Assembly (NCBI RefSeq): GCF_900099805.1 | Contig: NZ_FNDR01000001.1 | Coordinates: forward strand, 1 to 64,000 | Length of the DNA: 64,000 bases | Origin: Variovorax sp. OV700 | Lineage (GTDB): Bacteria; Pseudomonadota; Gammaproteobacteria; Burkholderiales; Burkholderiaceae_C | Direction: 5' to 3' | In this document: positions 295 to 7,369 of the stretch, piece after piece | Layout: each line of letters starts with the position of its first letter | Position numbering within the stretch: the stretch's first letter is position 1 | The notes under the pieces: generated by a model | Database searches by the model: none | What the model was told of the DNA's origin: nothing | The model's input: the letters and a program-made list of their open reading frames with translations, nothing else | Made by a program: the position numbers and the translations under genes

Positions 295-1149
295 TCATGG
301 CGCCTGCCATGCGACGTGTCCCCCCTCGAACATCTTCTGCAGACGTCCGCCCTGCACCAGCGCATTGACGCTGGCTTGCAGCGCCTGGGCCAGGTCGGTT
401 GCGTCCTTCTTCACTGCCATGCCCACCGCCCAGCCGTTGCGCTGGATGCGTACCGAAGGCAGCGGCGCAATGGCAAAGCGCGCATCGCCGTGCAGCACCG
501 ACTCCATCTCGGAGGCGAGCCCCGCGGCAGCCGCCACCTCGCCGCGCTGCAGGGCGCGTGCGGCCTCGGCGCCGTCCTTCGGCTGTGTGTCGAGCTGGCC
601 GCGGTAAGCGCCGTTGTCGGCGCCGATCATGAGCCAGCCGGCCAGCGTCTTGCCGGAGACGGCCACCTTCGCATCGCCGAGCGCCGAGAGCGTTTCCAGC
701 TGCGGCAAGCGGTCCAGGCGCCGCGCCAGCACCACGCGCTCGCGGTAGTACGGCGCGAAGATGAGCGCCTGCGGCGTCTCGTCCATCAGCGGGCGGTCCA
801 CCGGAACGTGCAGCAATACATCGGCCGGACCAAAGCCGAGATAGTGGCCGCGCCACACCATGTTGCGCAGGTCGTCGCCCATGTTCTCGTCGGCCTGGAA
901 CGGCAGCAGCGAGAGCTTCACGTCCAGCGCGCCGGCCAGCGCGCGCGCCAGCTCGACATCGATGCCTTGGCCGGCCACATGGAACGGCGGCATGTCCTGG
1001 TAGATCGCTACGCTCAGCGTGCCGCGTGCGCGGATTTTCTCGATCGCACCCGCGCGCGCCGTGCCGGCGAGCGCGGCCACGCCGGCGGCCGCGGCCCAGC
1101 GCAGGCAGTCGCGGCGCGACAACTGCACGGAAGAAGGAAGTGTGTGCAT
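295..1149 (-). CDS. Quinoprotein dehydrogenase-associated periplasmic solute-binding protein
   Basis: A 284-residue protein with a twin-arginine type leader ([14 protein letters not shown]12-R13) followed by a family 3 solute-binding fold: an early strand [15 protein letters not shown] and a second lobe with [14 protein letters not shown]. It resembles the MxaJ/XoxJ-like binding proteins encoded next to PQQ-dependent alcohol dehydrogenases, whose exact job is unsettled (assistance in activating the quinoprotein, or ligand binding). No ABC permease or ATPase gene is nearby, which argues against ordinary uptake. It follows the cytochrome c-550 gene by 10 bp and is probably cotranscribed with it from the sigma-54 promoter at 1719-1733. 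Confidence 0.85.
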
Positions 1150-1159
1150 GGCAGCCGCC

Positions 1160-1678
1160 TCACATCGGCTTGTCGCGCCGAGTCTCCAGGTACGACTTGA
1201 TGGACCAGATCGCCTCCTGGTTCATCGTTCCTTCGAACGGCGGCATGTAGACGGCGCCATTGCGCGTGCGGCCACGCCGCACGGTGGTGAGGAAGAAGTC
1301 GTCGATCTCTTTCACGCAGGCCGCCTTGCGCGCGGCGTCCTTGAGGGCGGCGCAATCGTTGTCGAGCTTGCGCAGGTCGGGTGCGATGCCGCCGGAGATG
1401 GCGTCGATGCCGTGGCAGCGCGCGCAGTTCTGGTTGTAGGCGGACGTGCCGATCTGGACGGCCCCACCGTTGCCGCGGAACGGATTCTCCGCGCGCCACT
1501 GGTCGCCCAGCTTGGGCAGGGACGACGTGTCGACGGCCTGCGGCGTGACGTCGCCGTGGGCCCAGGCAGCGCCGGAAACAGCGATGGTCAGCATTGCCGC
1601 CAGCAGAGCACTGGCCGCCTTGCGCAGCCTCGGCGCACGCGCCAGGGGCCGCAGGGTCCGTGGATCGGGATTCATCAT
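1160..1678 (-). CDS. pedF: Cytochrome c-550 (PedF-like), periplasmic electron acceptor
   Basis: A 172-residue protein with a basic, hydrophobic signal peptide ending near AWAHGDV and one haem c site, CARCH (C85, C88, H89). The likely axial methionine is M145 in the YMPPF motif. It matches the single-haem c-550 cytochromes paired with PQQ alcohol dehydrogenases. I chose the ATG at 1678 because GGAGA lies just upstream; the open frame extends to 1762, but that extension runs through the -24/-12 promoter at 1719-1733 and cannot be coding if that promoter is used. The role as electron acceptor of the dehydrogenase at 4554-6347 follows from family knowledge and locus context. Confidence 0.85.
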   Translation of the reverse strand: MMNPDPRTLRPLARAPRLRKAASALLAAMLTIAVSGAAWAHGDVTPQAVDTSSLPKLGDQWRAENPFRGNGGAVQIGTSAYNQNCARCHGIDAISGGIAPDLRKLDNDCAALKDAARKAACVKEIDDFFLTTVRRGRTRNGAVYMPPFEGTMNQEAIWSIKSYLETRRDKPM

Positions 1679-1718: not shown

Positions 1719-1733
1719 GCAATCGCTGTGCCA
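1719..1733 (-). promoter_or_regulatory. Sigma-54 (-24/-12) promoter of the cytochrome c-550 gene
   Basis: On the minus strand the sequence is TGGCACA-GCGA-TTGC, an almost exact match to the RpoN consensus TGGCACG-N4-TTGCW, with the invariant GG and GC at the right spacing. Transcription should start near 1707, leaving about 29 nt to the ATG at 1678, with a GGAGA ribosome site between. The neighbouring sigma-54 activator gene (1956-4094) is divergent from it. Confidence 0.8.
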
Positions 1734-1955: not shown

Positions 1956-4094
1956 ATGGTTGACGCCCTTCACGCCCCAGCCAGCCCACCCCAGGGCTGG
2001 ACCACGCCGTCGGCAATGGCCGTCACTCCACCTCGTGCCGGCCGCACCGAACTCATCGAGCAATGGCATCAGCGCTGCGCTGCTCTGGGTCTATCGCGCG
2101 TTGAGCGCCCAGACTTCGAGCCGATGAGGCGCAGCGATCTCGTGGTGGCGCGCGAGCGCAACCAGCGCCTGTTCACGCACGCGGCGCCGGTGATGGAGAT
2201 GCTGCTCGAACAGATCGTCGACACCGACAGCATGATCGTGCTGGCCGACACCACCGGCACCATCCTCCACTCCGTCGGCGACGACAGATTCTTGCAGCGC
2301 GCCAACAAGGTGGCGCTCACGCCAGGGGTGAGCTGGGCCGAGCATTCCAAGGGCACGAACGCCATCGGCACCACGCTGGTCGAGGAGACGCCGACGGTCG
2401 TGCATGGCGGCGAGCATTTCATCCACGCCAACAACTTTCTCACCTGTTCGGCCGCGCCGATCTTCGACCCCCGCGGCGAGATGCTGGGCGTGCTCGACGT
2501 CACCGGCGACCAGCACTCCTACCACCAACACACGATGGGCCTGGTGCGGATGTCGGCGCGCATGATCGAAAACCAGTGGTTGTCGGACGACTACGCCAAT
2601 CGACTGCGGCTGCACTTCCATGGCCGCGCGGAGTTCATCGGCACGCTGCTCGAAGGGATCATCGTCGTCGGCGCCGACGGCAAGATCCTGGGTGCCAACC
2701 GCAGCGCGCTGGACCAGCTCGGCATGAGCATCGCCGCGCTGCGCATGCAGAGCCTGGCGAGCCTGTTCGGCATCACGGCCTCGGCCGTGTTCGACCATTT
2801 CCGCGCGCCGCTGCCCGCGCCGATGATGCTGCACGCCGTCAGCGGACAGCTGTTCCATGTCAGCGCCCGGTTCAACGGGCCGCAGCGCGGGGTGGTGCTC
2901 GACATGCCGGTGACCTCGGTGGAAGCCCGCATGCCCGGCGAGGCGGGTGCCCGTGCAACACCCGCGGCGCGCGGCGATGACGCCGCGGCGCGACAGCCTT
3001 GCCCTCTCTCGAACCCGTCCTTCTCCGGCCTGCACTACCTGGACACCGGCGATGCGCAAATAGCGGTCACGCTGCAGAAGGTTCGGCGCGTCATCAACCG
3101 CGACATTCCGCTGCTCATCATGGGCGAGACCGGCACGGGCAAGGAGCTGCTTGCGCGCGCAGTGCACCAGGACTCGAACCGCGCCCGGCAGCCCTTCGTC
3201 GCGGTCAATTGCGCTTCCATTCCCGAGTCGCTGATCGAGGCCGAACTGTTCGGCTACGAGGAAGGCGCCTTCACCGGCGCGCGCCGAAAAGGCGCGGTCG
3301 GACGCATCGTGCAGGCCCATGGCGGCACGCTGTTCCTGGATGAGATCGGCGACATGCCGCTTTCGCTGCAGGCACGCCTGCTGCGGGCGCTGCAGGAACG
3401 CAACGTGACGCCGCTGGGCAGCCTCAAGTCGATTCCGGTGGACATCGCCGTGATCGGCGCCACGCACCGCAACCTGCGAGAGATGATCGGCGCAGGCACG
3501 TTCCGCGAAGACCTTTACTACCGGCTCAATGGCCTCGTGGTGCGGCTGCCGGCGCTGCGCGATCGCAGCGACTTGGACGTGGTGGCACGGCGCATCCTCC
3601 TGGCCGAATGCCCGCAGGACACGCCCGAGATCGCCCCTTCGGTACTGGCACTCTTCAAGGCCTATGCGTGGCCGGGCAACCTGCGCCAGCTGGCCAACGT
3701 GCTGCGCACCGCGGCTGTGATGGGCGCAGGCGAAAGCCACATCTGCGAACACCACTTATCGGACGACTTCCTGGAGGATGTAAGGCGCGTGCGACCCCAT
3801 GCGGCGCCGATCGCGGCAGCGCAGGCGCCGGAGCCCGTTCTCCCTCAGGCGACCACTCGATCGGAGCCCGCGAGCGCTGCCGCCGCGCCCGAGCACACGA
3901 TGCCTCCCTCGCGCGACGCCGAGCCCCTGCCCGCCGCTTTGCCCGAAGTCCCGCGCACGCTGGGGGAAGCCGAGATCGACATGATCCGCAGCGCCCTCGC
4001 GGCGGCCGACGGCAACATCTCCGTCGCCTCCAAGCGGCTGGGCATCAGCCGCAACACCATCTATCGCAAGCTGCGCTGGAACAAGGGCGAATGA
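1956..4094 (+). CDS. Sigma-54-dependent transcriptional activator, AcoR family (GAF - AAA+ - Fis HTH)
   Basis: A 712-residue enhancer-binding protein. The N-terminal sensor is of the AcoR type, with a GAF-like region at roughly residues 60-190 (MIVLADTTGTILHSVGD, SKGTNAIGTTLVEE). The AAA+ domain has Walker A GETGTGKE (390-397), the sigma-54 contact loop GAFTGA (437-442) and Walker B GTLFLDEIGD. The last 44 residues hold a Fis-type helix-turn-helix (NISVASKRLGISRNTIYRKL). I chose the ATG at 1956 because GGAGAC precedes it; the frame is open back to 1818 but lacks a ribosome site there. AcoR relatives respond to alcohols, acetoin or similar small molecules. Matching -24/-12 promoters in front of the cytochrome c-550 and dehydrogenase genes make it the probable local activator. 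The ligand is unknown. Confidence 0.92.
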   Translation: MVDALHAPASPPQGWTTPSAMAVTPPRAGRTELIEQWHQRCAALGLSRVERPDFEPMRRSDLVVARERNQRLFTHAAPVMEMLLEQIVDTDSMIVLADTTGTILHSVGDDRFLQRANKVALTPGVSWAEHSKGTNAIGTTLVEETPTVVHGGEHFIHANNFLTCSAAPIFDPRGEMLGVLDVTGDQHSYHQHTMGLVRMSARMIENQWLSDDYANRLRLHFHGRAEFIGTLLEGIIVVGADGKILGANRSALDQLGMSIAALRMQSLASLFGITASAVFDHFRAPLPAPMMLHAVSGQLFHVSARFNGPQRGVVLDMPVTSVEARMPGEAGARATPAARGDDAAARQPCPLSNPSFSGLHYLDTGDAQIAVTLQKVRRVINRDIPLLIMGETGTGKELLARAVHQDSNRARQPFVAVNCASIPESLIEAELFGYEEGAFTGARRKGAVGRIVQAHGGTLFLDEIGDMPLSLQARLLRALQERNVTPLGSLKSIPVDIAVIGATHRNLREMIGAGTFREDLYYRLNGLVVRLPALRDRSDLDVVARRILLAECPQDTPEIAPSVLALFKAYAWPGNLRQLANVLRTAAVMGAGESHICEHHLSDDFLEDVRRVRPHAAPIAAAQAPEPVLPQATTRSEPASAAAAPEHTMPPSRDAEPLPAALPEVPRTLGEAEIDMIRSALAAADGNISVASKRLGISRNTIYRKLRWNKGE

Positions 4095-4147: not shown

Positions 4148-4195
4148 TACCAGCCTGGAGCAACTCGCGCGGGTCGATGTCGCATTCAAGCCCGC

Positions 4196-4543
4196 TCAGG
4201 CGGGTTTTCCCGCCCATGCCTGGCACCAACCCTTGGCCGCGATCTGCTTGCGGCCGAACATGGCGCAGCCCGCCCAGGCATCGGTGGGTGTGCCCTGCCA
4301 CATGGCGCAGTTCACGCACTCCTGCGTGGCCGCATGGCGGGGGTACTTCTTCTTGTCGACCGTCTTCGTGTCGTGCCTGTAGCCCAGCTGCACCGCCATC
4401 TCGTCGCTTTCCTCGACGTGCGGCGGCGCGGCCCATACGACGCTCACCGGCAGCGCCGCCAGCAGGCAGGCGCCGCCGGCTGCGCGGCCGACGAAGCTCC
4501 GGCGGGAAGCGTCGCCGCCCCCTTCAGTCTTGCGATTCGTCAT
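4196..4543 (-). CDS. High-potential iron-sulfur protein (HiPIP), Tat-exported
   Basis: A 115-residue protein with a twin-arginine leader (ASRRSFVGRAAGG, then a hydrophobic stretch ending near VVWAA) and a small mature domain with four cysteines, C76-x2-C79-x13-C93-x13-C107. The pattern and the motifs ECVNCAMWQG, AGCAMFG and GWCQAW fit the single cubane [4Fe-4S] cluster of HiPIPs, which are soluble periplasmic one-electron carriers. I start at MTNRKTEGG (4543), only 10 bp after the dehydrogenase stop codon, so the two are almost certainly cotranscribed. A HiPIP directly behind a PQQ alcohol dehydrogenase suggests that it takes electrons from it or from its cytochrome; that is inference. Confidence 0.88.
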   Translation of the reverse strand: MTNRKTEGGGDASRRSFVGRAAGGACLLAALPVSVVWAAPPHVEESDEMAVQLGYRHDTKTVDKKKYPRHAATQECVNCAMWQGTPTDAWAGCAMFGRKQIAAKGWCQAWAGKPA

Positions 4544-4553
4544 GCCGCGCTCC

Positions 4554-6347
4554 TCAGTGGGATGCCACGCGAACGTCGCCCGCACCCGCGGTGCGCGTTG
4601 TGCCGGCGGAAGGGATCTTGAAGACCCACACCATGCCGCCCTGCTCCAGCAGGTTGACCTTCTTGGCCACCTCGCCGCCCCACAGCGGCACCGCGCCGCC
4701 CCAGCCGGAGACCACGGCCACGTACTGCTCGCCGCCCTGCTGCCAGGTGACTGGCGGAGCGACCACGCCCGAACCGGTCTGGAACTCCCACAGCACCTTG
4801 CCCGTCTTGGCGTCGGCCGCCTTCAGGTAGCCCTCTGGCGTGCCCCAGAACACCAGGTTGCCACCGGTGGTGAGCACCCCGCCCCACAGCGGCGCGCCGT
4901 TCTTGACCTCCCAGGCGATCTTGCCGGTCTTCGGATCGACCGCGCGCAGCGCGCCGATGTAGTCCTCGTTGAGCGGCTTGATGGTGAAACCCGAGCCGAG
5001 GTAGGCCGCGCCCTTCTTGTAGGCCACCGGTTCGTTCCAGATGTCCATGCCCCATTCGTTGGCGGGCACGTAGAACATCTTCGTGTCGGGGCTGTAGGCC
5101 ATCGGCATCTGGTTCTTGCCACCCAGGAAGCCTGGCGCCGCGAAGACCGAATTGCCCTTCTTGCCGCCGTCGCCGTCGACCGGGTTGCCCGGACGGTTCG
5201 CGGCCACGAAGTTCGGCCGACCGGTCTTCAGGTCGATGCCGTCGGCCCAGGTCGTCTTCCTGACGAAGGGAAAGGCGTTGAGGAGCTGCCCGGTGGTGGC
5301 ATCGTTGACGTAGAAGTAGCCGTTGCGGTCGGCCTTGCCGCCTACGCGCCGACCATCCATGTCGAAGGTGACGAACTCGTTCACGCCGTCGAAGTCCCAG
5401 CTGTCGCTGGGCGTGTTCTGGTAGTGCCACTTGATCTGGCCGGTCTTCACGTCGATGGCCACGGTCGAGCACGAGAACAGGTTGTCGCCCTTGCGCAGAT
5501 GGCTGTTCCACGGCGCCGGGTTGCCGGTGCCGAAGTAGGCCAGGCCGGTCTTGGAATCGAAAGTGCCGCCCAGCCAGGTGGCCGCGCCGCCGGTCTTCCA
5601 GAGGTCGCCCGGCCAGCTGTTGTTGGTGGTGCCCGAGACACCCGCCTCCTGCTTGTTGCCGTCCTTGTCGTAGGTGTAGCCCATGTGGCCTTCCACCGTG
5701 GGGCGCGACCACACCATGCGGCCCGTCTTGGCGTCGCGCGCCTCGACACGGCCGACGATGCCGAACTCGCCACCCGACACGCCGGTGAGGATCAGGCCGT
5801 TGGCGATGATCGGCGCGGCGGTGGCCGAATAGCCGGCCGCGTAGTCGTCGATCTTCTCCTTCCAGGCCACGTCGCCGGTGTTCTGGTCGAGCGCCACCAG
5901 CTGGGCGTCGAGCGTGGCGAAGATCACCAGGTTGTCGTAAAGCGCCGCGCCGCGGTTGACGACGTCGCAGCAAGGCATGATGCCCTCGGGCAGGCGGTGC
6001 TCGTACTTCCACAGCTTCTTGCCGGTGGTGGCGTCGAGGGCGTAGATGCGCGAGTAGGAAGCGGTGACGAACATCTTTCCCTTGTGGATCACGGGCTGCG
6101 CCTCCTGGCCGCGCTGCTTCTCCCCTCCGAAGGAGAAGGCCCATGCCGGCACCAGCCGGGACACGGTGCCGGTGTTGACCTGCTTCAGCGGCGAATAGCG
6201 CTGGCCCTGGGTGTTCACACCCCAGGTCAGGACGTTGCCGTTGGCGGTGGCTTCGGACTGGATCATCTTGTCCGTGACTTGCGCGCCGGCACTGCCGGCC
6301 GCGGCCAGGCCGATGGCCATGAGCGCGTTCAAGAGCTTCAATTGCAT
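4554..6347 (-). CDS. exaA: PQQ-dependent alcohol dehydrogenase, predicted lanthanide type
   Basis: A 597-residue quinoprotein with a signal peptide (cleavage near SAGAQ) and an eight-bladed propeller rich in W-motif repeats such as [11 protein letters not shown] and [11 protein letters not shown]. The adjacent cysteine pair C126-C127 (MPCCD), which stacks on PQQ, is present. The catalytic aspartate lies in [10 protein letters not shown]318 is the base and D320 is the extra aspartate that coordinates lanthanides in XoxF/PedH; calcium enzymes have Ala or Ser there. The overall sequence is closer to ethanol (ExaA/PedH) than methanol dehydrogenases. It oxidises primary alcohols in the periplasm and passes electrons to cytochrome c. 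The start has GAGGAGA upstream, and a sigma-54 promoter lies at 6419-6433. No PQQ synthesis genes are in this window. Confidence 0.92.
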
Positions 6348-6418: not shown

Positions 6419-6433
6419 GCAATGTCCGTGCCA
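6419..6433 (-). promoter_or_regulatory. Sigma-54 (-24/-12) promoter of the PQQ alcohol dehydrogenase gene
   Basis: The minus-strand sequence is TGGCACG-GACA-TTGC, which matches the RpoN consensus at all fixed positions. The predicted start is near 6407, about 60 nt before the dehydrogenase ATG at 6347. Together with the similar site at 1719-1733 it ties both transcription units to the AcoR-like activator. Confidence 0.82.
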
Positions 6434-6699: not shown

Positions 6700-7230
6700 A
6701 TGAAGGATCGCATCAATCCACATGCCGCCCCGACTGCTCGCCTGATTCGCCGCGTTGCACGCTCCACCGCCGTGTTGGCCATCCTCCTGTCCTCAGCCTT
6801 GGCTGGGGCGCAAACAGTTGGCAGCCAGAAGGCGAACAAGAGCGAGATCCAGCGCGGCCGCTACCTGGTGATGATCGGGGGCTGCAACGATTGCCACACG
6901 CCCGGCTACGCTGCAAAGAACGGCGAGGTCGACGAGAAGCTGTGGCTGACCGGTGACGCCTTGGGCTGGTCCGGCCCGTGGGGCACCACATACCCGGTCA
7001 ATCTGCGCTTGTTCATGGCTGACATGAGCCAGCAGCAGTGGGTGAAGCATGCGCGCGCCATGACGCCTCGTCCGCCCATGCCATGGTTCAACGTGCGCGC
7101 GATGACCGACGCAGATTTGAAGGCCATCTACACCTACACCCGCTCGCTCGGTCGCGGCGGCGATCCGGCGCCCGCGTATGTTCCGCCGGGTACCAAGCCT
7201 GGTGGGCCGGTGGTGCAGTTTCCAGGATGA
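6700..7230 (+). CDS. Periplasmic mono-haem cytochrome c
   Basis: A 176-residue protein with an N-terminal signal/anchor (basic stretch then STAVLAILLSSALAGAQ) and one haem c motif, CNDCH (C62, C65, H66). It also has a likely axial Met in RPPMPWFN and a C-terminal part resembling the cytochrome subunits of alcohol/aldehyde dehydrogenases (MTDADLKAIYTYTRSLG). GGAG precedes the ATG by 8 nt. It is divergent from the PQQ dehydrogenase gene across 352 bp, so it is a second candidate electron carrier for that enzyme. The partner assignment is inference from position; the cytochrome c call is firm. Confidence 0.85.
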   Translation: MKDRINPHAAPTARLIRRVARSTAVLAILLSSALAGAQTVGSQKANKSEIQRGRYLVMIGGCNDCHTPGYAAKNGEVDEKLWLTGDALGWSGPWGTTYPVNLRLFMADMSQQQWVKHARAMTPRPPMPWFNVRAMTDADLKAIYTYTRSLGRGGDPAPAYVPPGTKPGGPVVQFPG

Positions 7231-7292: not shown

Positions 7293-7369
7293 TGGCCTGC
7301 CCGGAGGGGATCGAACCCCCGACAACCTGCTTAGAAGGCAGGTGCTCTATCCAACTGAGCTACGGGCAG
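7293..7369 (-). tRNA. tRNA-Arg (anticodon UCU)
   Basis: The minus strand folds as a complete cloverleaf: acceptor CTGCCCG/CGGGCAG, D-arm GCTC...GAGC, anticodon stem CCTGC/GCAGG with loop CTTCTAA (anticodon TCT), T-arm GGGGGTTCGATCCCCTC with one imperfect pair, discriminator G and an encoded CCA at 7293-7295. This tRNA reads the rare AGA/AGG arginine codons. No integrase or repeated 3' end is visible beside it. Confidence 0.95.

Follow-up and report, generated by a model that had tools for sequence, protein, structure and literature searches.

A PedH-type alcohol dehydrogenase with a lanthanide-type metal site, a linked HiPIP subfamily and sigma-54 promoter-like sites in Variovorax sp. OV700

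PQQ-dependent alcohol dehydrogenases differ in the metal that they hold beside the cofactor, and one of the closest described systems for the locus considered here is PedH of Pseudomonas putida KT2440. The metal ligands in its structure 6ZCW are tabulated as Glu199, Asn281, Asp323 and Asp325, the last of which binds the lanthanide (PMC11845868). Purified PedH shows activity with the lanthanides from La to Tb but none in conditions that suit the calcium enzyme PedE (PMC5487730), and it can apparently bind Ca2+ when rare earths are absent (PMC11845868). The Ser-type PedE of Methylopila retains 50-80% of its activity when lanthanides are added (PMC10409515), and the choice between a D-x-D motif and a Ser is therefore an imperfect predictor of metal use. 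Electrons leave PedH of P. putida one by one to the cytochrome PedF (PMC12997753), and the electron acceptors named for such enzymes in the works cited here are c-type cytochromes, PedF (PMC12997753) and XoxG (PMC11845868). Regulation in P. putida involves the PedS2/PedR2 switch, and exaA of Azospirillum brasilense is a PQQ alcohol dehydrogenase gene already known to be sigma-54-dependent (PMC6115532). Roles published for HiPIP carriers include photosynthesis, iron oxidation and respiration (PMC10654088, PMC12113256), with potentials from +0.05 to +0.5 V (PMC10654088).

The locus lies in a stretch of 64,000 nucleotides at the start of contig NZ_FNDR01000001.1 of the soil bacterium Variovorax sp. 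OV700, here called the window. Its dehydrogenase shares with PedH of P. putida KT2440 (6ZCV/6ZCW) the family, the four metal ligands and the vicinal cysteines; in both organisms, genes for PedF and a PedG-like protein are linked to it. The window genome differs from KT2440 in having no detected PedE partner and in carrying a HiPIP gene that adjoins pedH; as to regulation, P. putida uses the PedS2/PedR2 switch, and the window locus carries a promoter-like site of the sigma-54 type together with the gene of an enhancer-binding activator. The exaA gene of A. brasilense Sp7 is served by a LuxR-type response regulator, whereas a GAF-AAA-Fis activator is encoded alongside in the window. ExaF of Methylorubrum extorquens is counted with the same PedH/ExaF-type family. 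PedE/ExaA (1FLG) fall in the same overall family at 56% identity, with Ser at the column of D320 and a separate clade, and XoxF (4MAE) has the D-x-D metal site in common with the window enzyme but shows far lower similarity (369 vs 802 bits) and also forms a separate clade, to which the genome's own XoxF belongs, unlike the window enzyme. The window HiPIP shares with known carriers (PF01355; 1hlq, PioC/Iro) the four-Cys family and a leader peptide, and departs from them by the MFGRK that follows its third cysteine and by its linkage to PedH in the genome. Together with the proposed sigma-54 control, this PedH-specific HiPIP sets the locus apart as a variant of the known PedH systems.

The dehydrogenase and its metal site

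The pedH-type gene occupies 4554..6347 on the minus strand (start ATG 6345-6347, stop 4554-4556) and encodes a PQQ alcohol dehydrogenase of 597 aa with a signal peptide recognised by eye. The protein scores 744 bits against NCBIfam TIGR03075 (PQQ-dependent methanol/ethanol dehydrogenase; cut-off 480), and the solved structures rank as PedH 6zcv (802 bits), PedH 6zcw (801), ExaA 1flg (645), XoxF 4mae (369) and XoxF 6dam (364), so that its full-length homology is nearer to PedH than to ExaA or XoxF. Identity is 62% to P. putida PedH and 96% at the protein level to the counterpart in V. beijingensis. A FastTree phylogeny places the protein inside the PedH clade, of which P. putida PedH is the outermost member (0.99), separate from the ExaA/PedE-like proteins and outside the XoxF clade.

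The metal site can be located codon by codon on the minus strand. W317 is encoded at 5397-5399, the catalytic D318 (PedH Asp323) at 5394..5396 and D320, the lanthanide-type second aspartate (PedH Asp325), at 5388..5390. These positions make 5388-5399 exactly the W317-D318-F319-D320 segment, which aligns without gaps to P. putida PedH; the residue numbers 318 and 320 are correct if translation begins at the ATG at 6347. The two further ligands are N276 (5520..5522, PedH Asn281) and E194 (5766..5768, PedH Glu199), and the vicinal cysteine pair typical of PQQ alcohol dehydrogenases, C126-C127, lies at 5967..5972; the coordinates of these residues were computed from the ORF start. In an alignment of 137 rows, all four metal ligands match those of PedH. 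The PedH clade contributes 110 rows (the window protein, 80 named loci and 29 others, with a few genomes counted twice), and Asp stands at both aspartate columns, N at 276, E at 194 and the two cysteines at 126-127 in 110/110 of them. At the D320 column, Ser is found in ExaA 1FLG and in each of the 10 PedE-type rows read out of 30 matches. A chance occurrence of the short W-D-F-D motif is excluded by the TIGR03075 score and by its position on the metal site of solved structures.

These results bear out the initial annotation, which had read aspartates 318 and 320 in an active-site WDFD at 5388-5399 and had taken the second to be a lanthanide ligand that calcium enzymes such as ExaA replace with Ala or Ser: the minus-strand codons, the ligands tabulated for 6ZCW (PMC11845868) and the alignment all agree, D320 falls on the Asp325 column of PedH rather than away from the metal site, and the tree puts the enzyme with PedH, apart from the ExaA/PedE-like proteins. 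Its further proposal of a rare-earth-dependent ethanol-type dehydrogenase is likewise supported by the alignment and the clade placement, as a prediction of metal use. Membership of the calcium type (PedE/ExaA), which would call for Ser, Thr or Ala at the second position where Asp is present, and membership of XoxF were both ruled out by alignment and tree. By homology, the protein is a further member of the known PedH/ExaF-type family, a conclusion that follows from the alignment, the placement in the PedH clade and the invariant Asp of PedH rows against the Ser of PedE-type rows; the motif alone is ordinary. The metal-site alignment, the clade placement and the published metal response of PedH together support a reading of the lanthanide type, and the 597-aa enzyme is a predicted rare-earth-dependent PQQ alcohol dehydrogenase. 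An AlphaFold2 model of the dehydrogenase reached pTM 0.78 and mean pLDDT 69.6, with pLDDT below 50 at residues 194-196, 276-292 and 314-322, that is, at the metal site.

A PedH-like protein with some departures from this pattern was seen at locus L150 (G061:C101, minus strand). It has 67% identity, keeps the D-x-D as WDFDAMSV and carries Lys at the column of R341, a residue invariant in 14 aligned rows; a PedH-like protein of genome G317 (66% identity) may resemble this type.

A PF13360 profile search, followed by inspection of the loci, revealed two further PQQ alcohol dehydrogenases in the genome. The first, at about 186.7-188.3 kb of the contig that carries the window, is a XoxF of the Asp type (WDFDGINE) and groups with 4mae in the XoxF branch. 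The other is a type II quinohaemoprotein on contig C36, with WDYTST (Thr at the D320 column) and a C-terminal haem motif recognised by eye. Two additional weak PF13360 matches lie on contig C29. A PedE/ExaA copy was not found in the genome, the protein query returning only the enzyme itself and XoxF at E up to 1e-100. Within the window, the absence of a calcium-type copy noted at the outset also stands, since the only other matches to PF13360 (PQQ_2, BamB family) fall in a frame of 394 aa (C30:48741-49640). Behind XoxF, about 180 kb from pedH, a solute-binding frame was recognised by eye as XoxJ-like (L010, G000:C30:184000-190000). The capacity for PQQ biosynthesis is indicated by pqqB, the one pqq gene searched for (C30:200146-201063; 389.5 bits, cut-off 245).

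The lack of a calcium copy is unremarkable in the family. Among 399 family genomes, with at most three candidates scored per genome, 83 have a PedH-clade match (at least 66% identity, partial genes included) and 30 a PedE-like match (52-56%); 16 have both and 14 only the PedE-like one, 97 genomes in total. A PedE-type match is thus absent from 67 of the 83 PedH-bearing genomes on this scoring.

The HiPIP beside pedH and its relatives

Immediately downstream of pedH, with its ATG 10 nt after the pedH stop, a minus-strand gene at 4196..4543 encodes a HiPIP of 115 aa with an N-terminal RRSF leader, twin-arginine-like by eye. Assignment to the family is given by PF01355 (76 bits, cut-off 22) and by four cluster cysteines read by eye as C-x2-C-x13-C-x13-C. 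The PDB match of the protein is 1hlq, a HiPIP from Rhodoferax. This gene is the sole PF01355 match found in the genome. The counterpart region of V. beijingensis (L050:10152-14371) has about 4.2 kb between the HiPIP gene and the sigma-54 regulator gene that is absent from the window (about 4173-4193); this segment encodes a protein of the beta-lactamase fold and a Fer4_5 protein.

A HiPIP gene lies within 8 kb of pedH in 9 of the 80 named PedH loci, always on the same strand, and this count is a lower bound because flanks are short at some loci. Seven of the nine are at 21-149 bp (four Variovorax, one Roseateles and two metagenome-assembled Burkholderiales), and the remaining two, both Curvibacter, are at 4.7-4.8 kb. 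The linked proteins share a sequence mark: MFGRK follows the third cysteine in 14/14 PedH-linked HiPIPs, Curvibacter included, and in 0/40 of the unlinked HiPIPs read (the unlinked set derives from 96 matches, 6 of them linked, with 40 of the other 90 read). In an IQ-TREE phylogeny of 54 rows, the 14 linked HiPIPs group together, split from all others by a branch supported at 97/89, in a tree built on 76 columns only and with a bootstrap that had not settled.

A profile built from 11 linked HiPIPs was searched in the 399 family genomes. Its scores split into 16 matches at 133-148 bits, all with CAMFGRK, and a remainder at 127 bits or less; the best 30 matches were read, and the last 14 of these all lack MFGRK. 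To take in the lower-scoring matches as well, the same genomes were scanned with a DNA pattern for C[AS]MFGRK. It found 18 places, namely the same 16 HiPIPs and two places, in G252 and G365, that are not HiPIPs and have no PedH within the 3 kb examined. PedH precedes all 16 C[AS]MFGRK HiPIPs on the same strand: 14 follow it within 0.3 kb (57-250 bp, with distances taken from the mature part of the HiPIP), and two, in G194 and G389, at 4.8-4.9 kb. Nine of the 16 genomes (G201, G228, G194, G227, G356, G380, G156, G366 and G293) are independent of the definition of the group, and in all nine the genes are linked. No PedH was found near the 14 next-best HiPIPs in flanks of up to 1.5 kb, two of which reach a contig end sooner. 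A search of 369 genomes from the wider class yielded 4 matches at E up to 1e-24, and none of them was an MFGRK HiPIP from outside the family. Chance proximity of just any HiPIP to PedH was ruled out by the separate clade and the 16/16 linkage. In the genomes sampled, the MFGRK HiPIPs form, by sequence and linkage, a PedH-specific subfamily.

The pair is nevertheless an accessory trait, because four genomes of the same genus (G122, G215, G285 and G347) have neither a detected PedH nor an MFGRK HiPIP. The MFGRK HiPIP is absent from 67 of the 83 PedH genomes of the sample. On the PedH tree (14 rows with the HiPIP label and 94 without; the duplicate row L014 was dropped, and L090, with 218 bases downstream, was left unlabelled), the label requires at least 6 changes. 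Adjacency in the window suggests that pedH and the HiPIP gene would be transcribed together, an arrangement that cannot be universal given the gaps of 4.7-4.9 kb in G194, G389 and Curvibacter and the genes that intervene in Curvibacter L055, where a TonB receptor gene on the opposite strand and a two-component system separate pedH from the HiPIP gene. The intervening L055 genes (L055:9942-14311) encode the TonB receptor, a HAMP histidine kinase and a LuxR-type regulator, possibly a set for metal uptake and sensing.

Among the matches listed in a search of open-licence literature, none was found to connect a HiPIP with an alcohol dehydrogenase of the PQQ type; the few joint hits on the two topics were PMC10654088, PMC12113256 and PMC7350009.

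PedF, other neighbours and sigma-54 sites

Cytochrome c550 PedF is encoded at 1160..1678 on the minus strand (TIGR04494, 199 bits, cut-off 122), and no second match was found in the genome at E up to 1e-5. Next to it, at 295..1149 on the same strand, lies the gene of a periplasmic solute-binding protein, PedG/MoxJ-like by a weak TIGR03871 match of 26 bits that is far under the cut-off of 212; homologues of this protein adjoin PedF in 18 of 71 loci without the HiPIP, and also in L050. PedF is present in 15 of the 16 MFGRK-HiPIP genomes and in 30/30 of the PedH genomes without this HiPIP that were searched (30 of 67 such genomes). The one exception, G389, has the HiPIP and no PedF match, and is a draft of about 260 contigs. 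For the genomes searched, this distribution rules out the HiPIP as a replacement for PedF and indicates that it adds to PedF.

Two other candidates for parts of the module were considered. A divergent small c-type cytochrome is encoded at 6700..7230 on the plus strand (PF00034 at cut-off, 21.3 bits); no homologue was reported across the 80 PedH loci, which leaves it unsupported as a component. A NosR-like protein was rejected as a fixed part of the module, with matches in 22/80 PedH loci and none found in this genome in a search run without a positive control. Fer4_5 proteins, NosR-like by eye, were seen at L055:5426-7657 (-) and L050:11163-13277 (-), the latter with an FMN-binding match. A tRNA-Arg(tct) gene (7293-7369, minus strand) stands beside the alcohol dehydrogenase cluster.

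Promoter-like sequences of the sigma-54 (-24/-12) type precede both pedH and pedF. The site TGGCACGGACATTGC lies at 6419..6433 on the minus strand, 71 nt before the pedH ATG, and TGGCACAGCGATTGC at 1719..1733, also on the minus strand, 40 nt before the pedF ATG; both contain the exact core. Across the 64 kb, TGGCACN5TTGC is matched exactly at these two places, both on the coding strand, where 0.22 would be expected; two matches were reached in 1 of 100 shuffles. With 1-2 mismatches permitted, counts in the window are at chance level, so that the argument rests solely on exact matches to the core and on conservation of the core in related loci. Of 79 PedH loci, 45 carry a site with no more than one mismatch in the 330 bp that precede the match start, and 34 do not; the corresponding numbers are 2 for the reverse strand and 0.3 for shuffled sequence. 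Stretches further upstream gave 0/73 and 2/68, and the inside of the gene 0/80. Among the nine HiPIP loci, the site shows no more than one mismatch in three (L052, L063 and L076) and two mismatches in the other six. The upstream TGGCAC-N5-TTGC and its conservation in orthologues thus mark these sites as promoter-like by sequence. A sigma-54 enhancer-binding activator with GAF, AAA and Fis HTH domains is encoded at 1956..4094 on the plus strand (PF00158, 224 bits; GAF; HTH_8), and its N-terminal 390 residues are matched in 31 of the 80 PedH loci.

Electron routes and biological meaning

The reading that best accounts for this locus, to which we assign a probability of roughly 0.6, combines a lanthanide-type PedH, a dedicated extra HiPIP carrier and sigma-54 control of both pedH-hipip and pedF. 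PedH would oxidise alcohols in the periplasm using PQQ and a light lanthanide, with D320 probably supplying the extra carboxylate that holds ions of the La-Nd type beside PQQ, by analogy with PedH of P. putida. Electrons would leave the enzyme singly for the cytochrome PedF, as in P. putida, and the HiPIP would supplement PedF by taking PedH-derived electrons, directly or via PedF, towards a terminal oxidase; the potential range published for HiPIPs permits such a transfer. Sigma-54 and the GAF-type activator encoded at 1956-4094 would switch on pedH-hipip, and pedF together with the gene behind it.

The evidence of clade and linkage makes an extra, dedicated electron carrier for PedH the most likely role of the HiPIP. 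As this distinct HiPIP was seen only beside such enzymes in the sampled genomes, it suggests an undescribed electron route off PedH. The HiPIP would be dispensable for PedH function, because PedF is kept in 15/16 HiPIP genomes and 67/83 PedH genomes are without the MFGRK type. The wider proposition, that the MFGRK subfamily is a dedicated physiological electron acceptor of lanthanide-dependent PedH in Burkholderiales, stands at about even odds.

Linkage by itself is compatible with reduction of the HiPIP by either PedH or PedF. A serial route from PedH through PedF and the HiPIP to the oxidase is accordingly a branch of the preferred explanation, with odds that overlap, and can be held tentatively, at somewhat below even odds. 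It gains from the joint presence of PedF and the HiPIP in 15 of the 16 HiPIP genomes and from the same promoter-like site before pedF and pedH in the window, while the HiPIP accompanies pedH, not pedF, in the 16 genomes, and the draft genome G389 has the HiPIP without a PedF match (about 260 contigs).

Unlikely, though to be taken seriously, is an ordinary PedH that passes all its electrons to PedF beside a HiPIP co-inherited as a neighbour for other redox needs, such as stress or transfer from bc1 to the oxidase. The near-constant presence of PedF (45 of 46 PedH genomes searched) and the scarcity of HiPIP genes within the flanks of up to 8 kb (just 9 of 80 PedH loci) are what such an arrangement would lead one to expect; it fits poorly with the separate clade of the PedH-linked HiPIPs, with the company of PedH in 16/16 C[AS]MFGRK HiPIPs of the 399 genomes, with a pair kept together despite at least 6 label changes on the PedH tree, and with the finding of no second HiPIP in this genome. 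Dependence on calcium, or roughly equal use of Ca2+ and Ln3+ despite D320, is highly improbable for this enzyme: the apparent Ca2+ coordination by PedH without rare earths (PMC11845868) and the tolerance of lanthanides by the Ser-type Methylopila PedE, at 50-80% activity (PMC10409515), lend it something, against four metal ligands identical to those of 6ZCW and a purified PedH inactive in the conditions of calcium PedE and active from La to Tb (PMC5487730).

For the preferred reading, a lanthanide PedH served by its own HiPIP under sigma-54 control, the consequences lie mostly beyond the metal site. The lanthanide motif alone would make this enzyme one more PedH; the linked HiPIP would matter more and yields a prediction open to direct test. 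The apparent sigma-54 wiring may point to control of pedH by a cue that is not the metal, for example the alcohol, and many of these pedH-bearing bacteria show no PedE partner to switch to. If the HiPIP does accept electrons from PedH, an iron-sulfur route would lead out of a lanthanide quinoprotein.
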